DNA of 64,000 nt from Acidobacteriaceae bacterium. Its GTDB lineage: Bacteria > Acidobacteriota > Terriglobia > Terriglobales > Acidobacteriaceae. Below are positions 41,089-46,667 of this stretch, one piece after another. The notes beneath the pieces were generated by a model. That model was not told the DNA's origin. It did no database searches and was given only the letters and a program-made list of their open reading frames with translations. A program made the translations under genes and the position numbers. The stretch is taken from positions 45,236 to 109,235 of the forward strand of contig JASHRF010000107.1 of assembly GCA_030037545.1 (NCBI GenBank). The letters are read 5' to 3'. Each line of letters opens with the position of its first letter. Within the stretch, counting starts at the first letter, position 1.

Positions 41089-41322
41089 GGCTACACGTAT
41101 AGCACAGTCGCGCGCAGTTGGCGGCGCATTCGGAAGTGCAACAGCGCCAAAGCGCTCTGCGATCGATAACGGACGCGAAGACGGAGGGAGGGTCCAAGCC
41201 CCTTTGCCTTTGAGAGGAAATCCACGTTCTTCTTCCGGCTTCTAACCCGCCTTCAAATTCCGGCCCTGAAATCCACTGGGGCAACCTGCTAAAATCGATT
41301 GAATCCACTCCTCGGAGCGGCG

Positions 41323-42474
41323 ATGCAGGCGATCCTGGCGCTCGAAGACGGGCGCATCTTCCGCGGCCTCGGCTACGGCCATCCTGGCGAATGCCAGGGC
41401 GAAGTCGTTTTTAATACTTCCCTTACCGGTTACCAGGAAATTGCGACCGACCCGTCGTACGCGGGTCAGATTGTCGTCCTCACCAATCCCCAAATTGGGA
41501 ACTACGGCACCAACCGCGCTGATAACGAAGCGGCCAAGCCCTACATCGAGGGCCTGATCGTGCGCGAGTTCTCGGCCATCAGCTCCAACTGGCGCTCCGA
41601 GCAGGTGACCGACGAGTACATGGAGCGGTACAGGGTTCCGGTCCTGGCGGAGATCGATACGCGCGCGCTGGTGCGCCACCTGCGCACTTATGGCGTGATG
41701 CGGGGGGTGATTTCGACGATCTGCCTGGACGCCGATGAGCTGGTGGCCAAGGCGCGCAGCATTCGGAAGATGGACGGGACCGATCTGGCCAAGGTGGTTT
41801 CGACGGCGTCGATCTACCAGATGGACCCGAGCGATCCGCGCAGCCAGTTGAACGATCCGCTGCTGGCCTCGTGTCTTGACCAGACGGCCGAGGCGCGCGA
41901 GCGGCGGCTCAATGTGGTTGCTTTCGATTTCGGAATCAAGCAGAACATCCTGCGCATCCTGTGCCGCGAGAATTGCAAGGTGACGGTGGTTCCGGCGGAG
42001 ACCACTGCGGAAGACGTGCTGGCCATGAAGCCCGACGGCGTTTTCCTGTCCAACGGGCCGGGCGATCCGGAGCCGGTGGACTACGCGGTGCGCGCCATCC
42101 GCAACATGATTGGCCGCGTGCCGGTGTTTGGAATTTGTTTGGGCCATCAGCTCACCGGCCTGGCGCTGGGCGGGCGGACGTACAAGCTCAAATTCGGGCA
42201 TCATGGCGGCAATCATCCGGTGCGCAACAATACCACCGGCAAGGTGGAGATCACGGCGCACAATCACAATTTTGCCGTCGATCCGGATTCGATCAACACG
42301 AATGAGGTAGAGCTGACGCATGTGGACCTGAACGATCAGACGCTCGAGGGCCTGCGCCACAAGACGCTGCCGCTGTTCAGCGTACAGTATCATCCCGAAG
42401 CCGCGCCGGGCCCGCATGACTCGCATTACCTGTTCCGCGACTTCCGCCAGATGATGGAGGAGTGGAAGGGATGA
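41323..42474 (+). CDS. carA: Carbamoyl-phosphate synthase small subunit
   Basis: Glutamine amidotransferase subunit, 383 residues from ATG 41323 (the track starts at a TTG 8 codons earlier). It has [14 protein letters not shown] and [11 protein letters not shown] at the start, and the class I triad: Cys in GICLGHQ, His and Glu in QYHPEA. It supplies ammonia to CarB for pyrimidine and arginine synthesis. carB follows but is separated by 695 bp holding a RAYT and its REP elements. Confidence 0.96.
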
Positions 42475-42552: not shown

Positions 42553-42626
42553 GTTTTGAATGGGCACGGCTTCAGCCGCGCCGCCACTGGAGCACAGGAA
42601 TCCGCGGCTTTAGCCGCTGAGGGATA
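42553..42626 (-). repeat. REP/BIME copy 1, reverse orientation, upstream of RAYT
   Basis: Two palindromic units, GGCACGGCTTCAGCCGCGCC and GCGGCTTTAGCCGC, preceded by GTTTTGAA. It is the reverse complement of the pattern (CCCTCAGGGGCTAAAGCCC - spacer - GGCACGGCTGAAGCC - CCCTTTCAAAAC) found in the other copies, so the RAYT is flanked by inverted elements. Confidence 0.85.
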
Positions 42627-42629
42627 GTT

Positions 42630-43151
42630 TTGAAACCCGCGCGCGAGCACGCAACCAACAACTCGCAAACCTACTTCATCACGTCGGACACGTGGGAACG
42701 GCGTGCTCTGTTCCGAGTAGAGCCCTGGGCAAGACTGTTCTTCAAAAACCTTCTCGCACATCGCGGCAAGGCCTATCTCCTGCACGAATTCGTCTTGATG
42801 CCGGATCATTTCCATTTACTGCTGTCCCCGAGAGTTGCTCTCGAACGCGCCATCCAACTCATCAAGGGCGGTTTTTCATTCCGAGTCAAAAAAGAGCTGG
42901 GATTTAATGGCGAGGTTTGGCATCGAGGTTTTTCCGATCATCGCATTCGCGATGCGGAAGATTACGACCTTCATCTCCATTACATTCATTTGAATCCGGT
43001 GAAGAAGCATTTGTGCAGCGCTCCAGCCGAATATCCCTATTCGTCCGCATATCCCGGTTGGAAGCTGGACCCCCTCCCTCAGGGGCTAAAGCCCCTCGGT
43101 AACGGGCCGGCTTATGGCACGACTAAAGTCGTGCCCTTTCAAAACAGGTAA
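42630..43151 (+). CDS. REP-associated tyrosine transposase (RAYT, Y1/HUH)
   Basis: 173-residue TnpA_REP-type single-strand transposase of the IS200-like Y1 superfamily. The HUH motif is MPDHFHLLL. The catalytic Tyr lies in DLHLHYIHLNPVKKHL, with GEVWHRGFSDHRIRD between. These enzymes cut and move REP palindromes. It lies between carA and carB and is flanked by REP elements in opposite orientation. Its start is a TTG; an alternative start further in is possible. The last 25 or so residues (PQGLKP ... VVPFQNR) are translated from the downstream REP element itself, so the natural C-terminus may have been shorter. Confidence 0.9.
   Translation: MKPAREHATNNSQTYFITSDTWERRALFRVEPWARLFFKNLLAHRGKAYLLHEFVLMPDHFHLLLSPRVALERAIQLIKGGFSFRVKKELGFNGEVWHRGFSDHRIRDAEDYDLHLHYIHLNPVKKHLCSAPAEYPYSSAYPGWKLDPLPQGLKPLGNGPAYGTTKVVPFQNR
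43076..43145 (+). repeat. REP/BIME copy 2, downstream of RAYT (overlaps its 3' end)
   Basis: Left unit CCCTCAGGGGCTAAAGCCCC, a spacer, then GGCACGACTAAAGTCGTGCC with compensating changes (ACT/AGT) that keep the stem, ending CCCTTTCAAAAC. The compensating bases show that the palindrome is under structural selection. Confidence 0.88.
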
Positions 43152-43169: not shown

Positions 43170-46100
43170 ATGCCACGCAGAAATGACATTCAGAAGATCC
43201 TGGTGATCGGCTCGGGGCCGATCGTGATTGGGCAGTCGGCGGAGTTCGACTATTCCGGCACGCAGGCCTGCAAGGCCCTCAAGCAGGAGGGCTACGAGGT
43301 GGTGCTGGTCAATTCCAATCCGGCCACCATCATGACCGATCCGGAGCTCGCCGACCGCACTTATATCGAGCCGCTCACACGCGAGTATGTGGAAGAGATC
43401 ATCCGCATTGAGGCGGAGATGCTTTCCAATGCGGCTGGCGACGCCCCTCAGGGGCTAAAGCCCGCACACTCTGGTTGGGCGTCGAGCGGCACGGCTGAAG
43501 CCGCGCCCTTTCAAAACAAAAAAACAGGCAAGTTCGCGCTGCTGCCCACAGTCGGGGGACAGACGGCGCTCAATCTGGCCGTCGATCTTGCCGATGCGGG
43601 AATTCTCGATCGCTATAACGTGGAGCTAATCGGCGCCAAGCTCGAAGCTATCAAGAAGGCGGAAGACCGGCTGCTGTTCAAAGACGCGATGATCCGGATT
43701 GGCCTCGATGTGCCCAAGTCCGCGCTGGTGAACAATGTTCGCGACGGCCTGGATTTTGCGGGCAAGATTGGATTTCCGGTGCTCGTCCGGCCCAGCTTTA
43801 CGCTGGGCGGCACGGGCGGCGGCATTGGCTACAACCGCGAAGAACTGCTGGAGATTCTGGCGCGCGGCCTCGATCTTTCGCCGGTGCATGAATGCCTTAT
43901 CGAAGAGAGCATCCTGGGCTGGAAAGAATTCGAGCTGGAGGTGATGAGGGACCTCGCCGACAATGTCATCATTATTTGTTCCATCGAAAATTTCGATCCC
44001 ATGGGCGTCCACACGGGCGACTCGATTACCGTGGCGCCGGCGCAGACGCTTACCGACCGCGAATACCAGAAGATGCGCGACGCGGCCATTGCCGTGATGC
44101 GCGAGATCGGCGTGGAGACGGGCGGATCGAATGTGCAGTTTGCGATCAACCCGCAGGACGGCCGCATGGTGGTGATTGAGATGAACCCGCGCGTCTCGCG
44201 CTCGTCGGCGCTGGCTTCGAAGGCCACCGGGTTTCCGATCGCGAAGATTGCGGCCAAGCTGGCCGTGGGCTACACACTCGACGAAATTCCCAACGATATT
44301 ACGCGCAAGACGCCAGCCTGCTTTGAGCCCACCATCGATTACGTAGTGGTGAAGATTCCCAAGTGGCAGTTTGAGAAATTTCCGGGCGCCGACGACACGC
44401 TGGGGCCGCAGATGAAGTCGGTGGGCGAGGTGATGGCCATTGGGCGCACCTTCAAGGAAGCGCTGATGAAGGCGTGGCGCTCGCTGGAGACCGGCAAGAA
44501 GACGGGCGCGGAGGTGGTGCTGGAGGAGCGGCGGCTGACGCAGATGCTGGTGACGCCGCGGCCGGAGCGGCTGGCCTATATGCGGTTCGCCTTCGAGCGT
44601 GGCATGAGCGTGCGCGAAGTGGCGCGGCTGACGCGCATGGACCCGTGGTTTCTGCACCAACTGCGCGAGATAACTGAGGCGCAGGGCACGATTGCGCAGA
44701 CCGCGCCGAAGGACATGGACGCGGAGCATTTGCGCCGCTTGAAGCGCATGGGCCTGAGCGACGAACGCATTGCGACGGAGTGGAAGCTCGAAGGCCACGA
44801 AGGCACCAGGCAGGTGAGGGAACTGCGCGAAGGGCAGGGAATCAGGCCGGTTTTCAAGCTGGTGGACACCTGCGCGGCGGAATTCGAATCGATGACGCCG
44901 TATCTCTATTCGACTTACGACGAAGAGGACGAAGCGGCGCCAACCGCAAAGCCGAAGATCATCATTCTCGGCTCGGGACCGAACCGCATCGGGCAGGGAA
45001 TTGAGTTCGATTACTGCTGCTGCCATGCAGCTTTTGCGCTCAAGAACGACGGTTACGAGACCATCATGGTCAACTGCAATCCGGAGACGGTGTCGACGGA
45101 TTACGACACCAGCGACCGGCTCTACTTTGAGCCGCTGACGCTCGAAGACGTGCTCGCGGTGTACAGCCACGAAGCGCAATCGGGTGCGAAAATCGGCATG
45201 ATTGTCCAGTTCGGCGGACAGACGCCGCTTAACCTGGCGCAGCGGCTGCGTGCAGCCGGTGTGCCCATCATCGGAACGTCGCCGGAGTCGATCGATCTGG
45301 CCGAAGACCGCAAGCAGTTCGGCAGATTGCTTGAAGAACTGAAGATTCCACAGCCGCGCGGCGGCACTGCGACAAGCGTGAGTGCGGCGCTGGCCGTGGG
45401 CGAACAGATTGGCTACCCGGTGCTGGTGCGGCCCAGCTATGTGCTGGGCGGACGGGCGATGGTGATCGCTTACGATGCCGATGCGGTTACGCGCTACATG
45501 CGCGAGGCGGTGGAGTACTCACAAGAGCGGCCGGTGCTGATCGATCACTTCCTTGAGAACGCGGTCGAAGTGGATGTCGATGCGCTGTGCGATTCGGAAG
45601 ATGTGCTGATTGCCGGCATCATGCAACACATTGAGGAGGCCGGGATTCACTCCGGCGATTCGTCGTGCGTGCTGCCCGCAGTCGGCATAAAGGACGAGAC
45701 GCTGGAGATGCTGCGCGCCTACACGCGCAAGCTGGCCCTGGCGCTCAAGGTGGTGGGGCTGGTCAATATACAGTTCGCCATCCAACGCGACGCGGAGGGC
45801 AACGACAATGTGTATGTGATCGAGGTGAATCCGCGCGCCTCGCGCACCGTGCCCTACGTTTCAAAGGCCACGGGCGTGCCGCTGGCAAAAATTGCCGCGC
45901 GGCTGATGACGGGCCGCAAGCTGCGCGAGCTGTTACCGAGGCAGGTCGCCAGCGGCAAGGATCTTGACGTGGGCTCGCACTATTACGTCAAGTCGCCGGT
46001 GTTTCCATGGTCGAAGTTTGCGGGAGTAGATACGGTGCTGGGGCCGGAGATGAAGTCCACCGGCGAAGTGATGGGCGTGGCGGCCAGCTTCGGCGAAGCG

Positions 46101-46550
46101 TTCGCAAAAGCGCAGCTCTCGGCCGGACAGATTCTGCCCACCGGCGGAACGGTTTTCTTTACGGTCAACGACCACGATAAGCCGGCCGCCATTCAACTGG
46201 CGCGCCGCTATATGAACCTGGGCTTCAAGATCGTGGCTACGCAGGGCACGGCCAACGTGCTGGAGGGCGCGGGGATGAGCGTGGAGCGCGTGTTCAAAGT
46301 GATGGAAGGGCGGCCGAACGCCGTGGACCTGATCAAGGGCGAGCGCATCCAGCTCATCATCAATACGCCACATGGGCAGGACGCAATCTTCGACGAGAAG
46401 CCGATCCGGCGCGCGGCGGTGCTGGCGCGGGTTCCGACGATCACCACGCTGGCTGCGGCGCAGGCGGCGGCGGAAGGAATTGCGGCCATGCAGCGGCATC
46501 GCACAACAGTGTTCGCGCTGCAGGAACTGCATAAGGCAAATGGGCGATGA
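43170..46550 (+). CDS. carB: Carbamoyl-phosphate synthase large subunit with an in-frame REP insertion
   Basis: Makes carbamoyl phosphate from bicarbonate, ATP and CarA-derived ammonia. 1126 residues against 1073 in E. coli. Both halves are intact: [19 protein letters not shown] and [19 protein letters not shown], two ATP-grasp domains ([34 protein letters not shown]), the oligomerisation domain and the MGS-like allosteric domain. Residues 92-116 (43443-43517) are encoded by a REP/BIME element. Flanking extra residues lengthen the insertion to about 35 between EIIRIEAEM and [13 protein letters not shown]. The frame is kept, so the enzyme is probably active. A second source of extra length is near 44930 ([12 protein letters not shown] linker). 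Confidence 0.95.
43443..43517 (+). repeat. REP/BIME copy 3, inside the carB coding sequence
   Basis: 75 bp (exactly 25 codons): GCCCCTCAGGGGCTAAAGCCC, a 25-nt spacer, then GGCACGGCTGAAGCCGCGCC and CTTTCAAAAC. It has the same two-unit architecture as copies 2 and 4. It is read as APQGLKP ... [10 protein letters not shown] with no stop codon. Confidence 0.92.
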
Positions 46551-46596: not shown

Positions 46597-46667
46597 TCCC
46601 TCGGGGGCTGAAGCCCACAATTGCACCTGGTCTATATGGCACGGCTGAAGCCGTGCCCCTTCAAAAC
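46597..46667 (+). repeat. REP/BIME copy 4, after carB
   Basis: TCCCTCGGGGGCTGAAGCCC, a spacer, then GGCACGGCTGAAGCCGTGCCCC and TTCAAAAC. Same orientation as copies 2 and 3. It lies in the gap between carB and a convergent membrane-protein gene and may serve as terminator. Confidence 0.88.

Follow-up and report, generated by a model that had tools for sequence, protein, structure and literature searches.

In-frame copies of mobile palindromic repeats in one loop of the carbamoyl-phosphate synthase large subunit of Acidobacteriaceae

The stretch of DNA analysed (64,000 nt; hereafter, the window) belongs to the draft genome of an Acidobacteriaceae bacterium, denoted G000 where it has to be told apart from its relatives. 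Both subunits of carbamoyl-phosphate synthase are encoded on its forward strand. The small subunit gene, carA (41299-42474), was recognized by the Pfam domains CPSase_sm_chain and GATase, and the large subunit gene, carB (43170-46550), by the NCBIfam model NF003671 (1645.7 bits, cut-off 599) and by Foldseek. The carB frame is open throughout its 1126 codons, and all CarB matches in the genome draft fall on this one gene. The AlphaFold model of the 1126 amino acid product (pLDDT 84, pTM 0.87) superposes on CarB from E. coli (1bxr) with a TM-score of 0.91 in Foldseek. Between the two genes, also on the forward strand, lies a gene for a REP-associated tyrosine transposase (RAYT/TIRYT type; 42630-43151), which scores 106.6 bits with NCBIfam model NF047646 (cut-off 80), matches Pfam Y1_Tnp, and has a legible HFH motif and YIHLNPV region in its translation. 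Several congeners share the order carA-RAYT-carB, as do more distant relatives (L091, L094, L095), and most congeners lack it; this patchy occurrence suggests that the element either has long been resident between the two genes or has reached this place repeatedly.

Four copies of a short repeat, each located by alignment to the repeat consensus of the genome, are packed within 4.1 kb around the transposase gene. The 5' terminal copy (42553-42624, reverse strand) is inverted, stands ahead of the transposase gene and forms an inverted pair with the copy in carB. The 3' terminal copy (43075-43146, forward strand) overlaps the end of the transposase gene and has hairpins with a z of -4.3. A further copy lies in frame inside carB (43442-43518, forward strand), and the fourth is intergenic, just 3' of carB (46597-46667, forward strand; direct repeat family D4). 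Since the inverted 5' and 3' copies bracket a tyrosine transposase gene, the repeat is the terminal repeat of a RAYT/TIRYT-type element. The last ~25 residues of the transposase (window positions 43062-43151; DPLPQGLKPLGNGPAYGTTKVVPFQNR) are encoded by its own 3' repeat copy, in the same frame and with nearly the same peptide as the insert in CarB. A repeat-coded transposase C-terminus was also seen in the congeners G383, G303, G392, G246, G124 and G347.

The preliminary description of this locus had placed a 75 bp palindromic element in codons 92-116 of carB (43443-43517), free of stops and keeping the frame, and had assigned it to the family of the copies beside the transposase gene; the uninterrupted carB frame and the alignment to the genome consensus bear out both points. 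The insert is a copy of a mobile double-palindrome repeat of this genome, lying wholly inside a conserved gene with conserved flanks. The window contains the sequence CTTTCAAAAC exactly two times, where 0.13 occurrences would be expected by chance, and of 200 shuffles of the carB copy, 199 fold less well than the copy itself (z -3.1). Only one of the three forward frames is free of stops, for the consensus and the carB copy alike. The insert lengthens the product by about 28-30 residues in comparison to congeners with an empty site, and by 38 in comparison to CarB from E. coli.

The repeat consensus spans 74 bases (CGTCCCTCAGGGGCTAAAGCCCCACGTTTTTGGGGAACTTATTGGCACGGCTGAAGCCGTGCCCTTTCAAAACA) and is composed of two different palindromes in tandem, GGGGCTAAAGCCCC and GGCACGGCTGAAGCCGTGCC, which share the core GGCTNAAGCC in the same orientation. 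Consensus copies start with CGTCCCTCAG and end with CCCTTTCAAAACA; the tetranucleotide GTAG is absent. Copies were counted by BLAST, as the strict pattern GGCTRAAGCC N{25,50} GGCNCGGCTGAAGCC misses the main subfamily, in which the gap is ~22 bases; the survey covered the frame used in CarB together with DNA matches, from searches and from sequence stretches. At least 40 further places in the genome match the carB copy, with E down to 2e-13 (40 of 181 candidates scored), and 66 match the insert at the level of the encoded peptide. Three genome copies are identical to the consensus and many others are 92-99% identical, which indicates that the family is young. The carB copy is clearly distinct from these young copies and belongs to a more diverged subgroup.

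A search of the genome for other reading frames with the element, and a test for a preference of frame, had been proposed. The repeat offers a single stop-free forward frame. Among 11 other copies of this genome, chosen for their long open frames (123-817 codons), none interrupts a conserved gene: each stands before the probable start codon or in a frame of non-coding appearance, and was therefore not counted as intragenic. Copies with an open frame directly upstream of likely start codons (L247, L249, L290) include one at a moeA-like gene here and, in G275, one at a purF-like gene; automated gene calling could extend such genes by N-termini that the repeat encodes.

In the AlphaFold model of CarB, residues 91-117 form the sole long disordered stretch (pLDDT <50), between a helix (residues 71-88) and a strand (residues 121-125) of the first pre-ATP-grasp domain. 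This agrees with the position between helix and strand anticipated in the preliminary description, and the insert is predicted to be a floppy loop of ~28 amino acids. Outside the loop CarB is under strong constraint, as judged by dN/dS values of 0.03-0.06 against seven congeners. The site is empty in ~26 congeners, most of which have a loop of 5 to ~11 residues at the insertion point; the insert is thus absent from most congeners, although not as the precise absence of about 35 residues that the preliminary description had looked for. Somewhat longer loops without a recognisable repeat are seen in G318, G365 and G377. Bacteria outside the family mostly read ERPDALLPT at this position, with zero extra residues.

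A search of 398 genomes of the family, in which the loop was read wherever the CarB match was interrupted, revealed the same repeat family in frame in the carB loop of four congeners (G323, G347, G350 and G275) and of one member of another genus (G080). In G350 (L193), 4-5 tandem repeat units add ~90 residues to give a CarB of 1206 residues, and in G275 the copy is decayed. The carB frame of G323 (L191) ends after 619 codons in the draft, 3' of the insert, through either a sequencing error or a real disruption. An unrelated palindromic repeat, GATTCCTC...GGAATGAC, occupies the carB loop of G001, G007, G397 (the same sequence as Granulicella sp. bog_404, L093), G381, G333 and G297. This second repeat, also seen as GATTCCTC(...)CGGAATGACA, encodes the peptide ADSS..RND or similar. 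It is multicopy in most genomes that have it in carB and absent from the five congeners with the first repeat in carB, which suggests that lineages took up repeats abundant in themselves; G080 and G191 have it elsewhere in the genome. The loop of G333 (L200) also contains a short tandem peptide repeat, GKGNDNGQ, beside the GATTCCTC repeat, which is another way in which this site has grown. Overall, the length of the loop varies by 101 residues, and that of any other part of the alignment by at most 32; the second half of CarB has a homologous loop, which is 20 residues long in nearly all relatives read. The presence of the same or an unrelated repeat at exactly this loop in other members of the family identifies it as a recurrent landing site. 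In addition, an hpnI-like glycosyltransferase gene of G275 (L288, G275:C14:109500-114000) contains an in-frame repeat copy, AEAPSDFKDAIGGTAEAVPFQN, that splits the HpnI match, so carB is not the sole possible target.

The reading that we consider probable is one in which the transposase spreads the repeat and only those insertions survive that fall in a tolerant, disordered loop. A copy of the terminal repeat from a RAYT/TIRYT-type element would have entered carB, presumably through the HUH tyrosine transposase of its family, and would have landed in the short tolerant loop between helix and strand. The repeat would happen to be open in the frame of CarB, which is the frame that encodes the C-terminus of the transposase itself, and the copy would then be translated as a disordered loop. 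The insert may have been kept because it did little harm. Tolerance could likewise explain the occurrence of the same repeat, of tandem repeats and of the unrelated palindromic repeat in other lineages, and the already greater length of the loop in this family than in other bacteria is in keeping with a capacity to take extra residues. Tolerance alone would predict more insertions in other proteins, unless such loops are rare; the hopanoid glycosyltransferase gene of G275 is the one found.

The inserts of the genus may go back to one event or to several. In a CarB tree built without the loop, the well-supported branches require a minimum of four changes for the first repeat and of three for the second. 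A single insertion in an ancestor of the genus, retained by some species and worn down or lost in others, is possible but seems to us rather unlikely. It would suit the flanking bases that the inserts of G000, G347 and G350 have in common, and these three may indeed go back to one insertion that was lost from G281 and G293; the longer repeat-free loops of G318 and G365 could then be remnants. Among ten genomes, the G323 copy moreover finds its best match in the carB copy of G000, but a genomic copy of G275 comes just as close. Over 71 bases, the copies of G000 and G323 share 90% identity despite a synonymous divergence of ~0.67 between the two carB genes and flanking DNA of no unusual similarity, which argues for separate recent insertions of one subfamily. 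The insert junctions differ between carriers and are too diverged to fix the insertion point or a target-site duplication, and a single event in the genus gives no account of G080 or of the unrelated repeat in other genera.

The location of the transposase gene bears on whether tolerance is the whole explanation. A transposase that prefers near targets could have struck carB on account of the adjoining home of its element, as the clustering of the four copies around the transposase gene would suggest. Of 31 congeners, 9 have a RAYT between carA and carB, and 4 of these have the repeat in carB; of the other 22, 1 has it there (Fisher p 0.017, a test that ignores shared descent). However, the RAYT of this genome shares only 45-47% identity with those of G323 and G350, and the second repeat sits in the same loop in G001, G007, G397, G333 and G297, where the locus has no matching RAYT. 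These five genomes lead us to reject the view that a RAYT at the carA-carB locus is the only cause; local hopping as an account of the carB insertions is in our estimation improbable, and the neighbouring transposase may in addition favour nearby targets. A bolder version, in which the loop is a true target hotspot, with transposases repeatedly directing their repeats to an essential gene that adjoins their own location and serves as a safe haven, and with two or more repeat families having evolved to be readable in its frame, strikes us as distinctly doubtful. The insert could conceivably have been co-opted for regulation of CarB, for partner binding, or as an mRNA hairpin that tunes translation. 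Its persistence in several lineages would fit such a role, and the stable RNA fold of the element makes an effect on the mRNA possible; yet neither sequence nor length is conserved between carriers, the ~26 sampled congeners without an insert evidently do without it, and the segment is predicted to be disordered, so that co-option is very unlikely. An assembly artefact is hardly credible. The draft is fragmented (128 contigs, 88.7% complete) and repeats can mislead assemblers, but the carB copy clearly differs from the young consensus copies, is in frame within a 109 kb contig, and is matched by comparable inserts at the same codons in separately assembled genomes.

Dozens of related species offer a natural series at one site of an essential enzyme, from an empty loop through one repeat and 4-5 tandem repeats to decayed remnants. 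The series makes it possible to test how mobile palindromes turn into protein sequence, and whether the places of insertion are chosen as targets or are those at which insertions survive. The CarB loop accepts up to ~90 extra residues, and repeat-derived segments of this kind would appear to gene callers and protein databases as family-specific insertions.

A REPIN consists of two inverted copies of a single REP and has GTAG ends. The repeat described here resembles REPINs as a non-autonomous short repeat that is probably spread by a RAYT-type transposase (PMC3116915; PMC8049555), but in this genome it pairs two different palindromes in the same orientation, rather than two inverted copies of one REP, and is probably read as protein in carB. 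Rickettsia palindromic elements are likewise palindromic repeats found in frame in many protein genes; their host is unrelated, and RPE-4 and RPE-6 correspond to CGTC REPs, for which there is no linkage to a transposase (PMC3733652). As characterized there, CGTC REPs have a CGTC tag, a stem of 8-9 bp and no linkage to a transposase gene; many consensus copies here begin with CGTC, yet the repeat brackets a transposase gene. Nor does the repeat show the unpaired GTAG at one palindrome end that marks GTAG REPs.

The preliminary description had regarded REP/BIME elements of RAYT systems as intergenic, which would have made carB a first case. This premise was wrong: in Di Nocera et al. (2013, PMC3733652), in-frame intragenic REPs of the GTAG and CGTC families are reported inside genes of several species, clusters of them encode up to 82 residues, and different REPs occupy about one recB site in X. 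campestris and X. oryzae. A RAYT-linked repeat in frame in carB therefore stands, and its claim to be the first of its kind falls. Those REPs and the carB repeats are alike in being short palindromic repeats, single or clustered, that are open in frame in conserved genes. In comparison to the cases given there, the carB repeat differs in its sequence, which lacks GTAG, in its presence in a metabolic enzyme, and in its host phylum, Acidobacteriota. A further difference is that two or more unrelated repeat families have entered the one loop of CarB, in several genera. We found no report in the literature of the CarB loop as a repeat hotspot, and one loop of an essential enzyme shared in this way, with tandem build-up in one genome, was not found described.

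Judged by arrangement, the element fits better with the TIRtrons, whose TIR-associated tyrosine transposases (TIRYTs) include a distinct acidobacterial group (PMC3733652, in the text available). There, as here, a tyrosine transposase gene lies between long inverted repeats that are partly self-complementary, the 3' copy overlaps the gene, and the repeats are also dispersed in the genome of a host from the Acidobacteriota. A repeat inside a protein gene and a location between carA and carB are not among the TIRtron features described in that text. With its gene at 42630-43151 set between inverted long repeats, more than 40 dispersed copies and no GTAG tag, the element appears closer to the TIRtron/TIRYT class than to classical RAYT-linked REPs.
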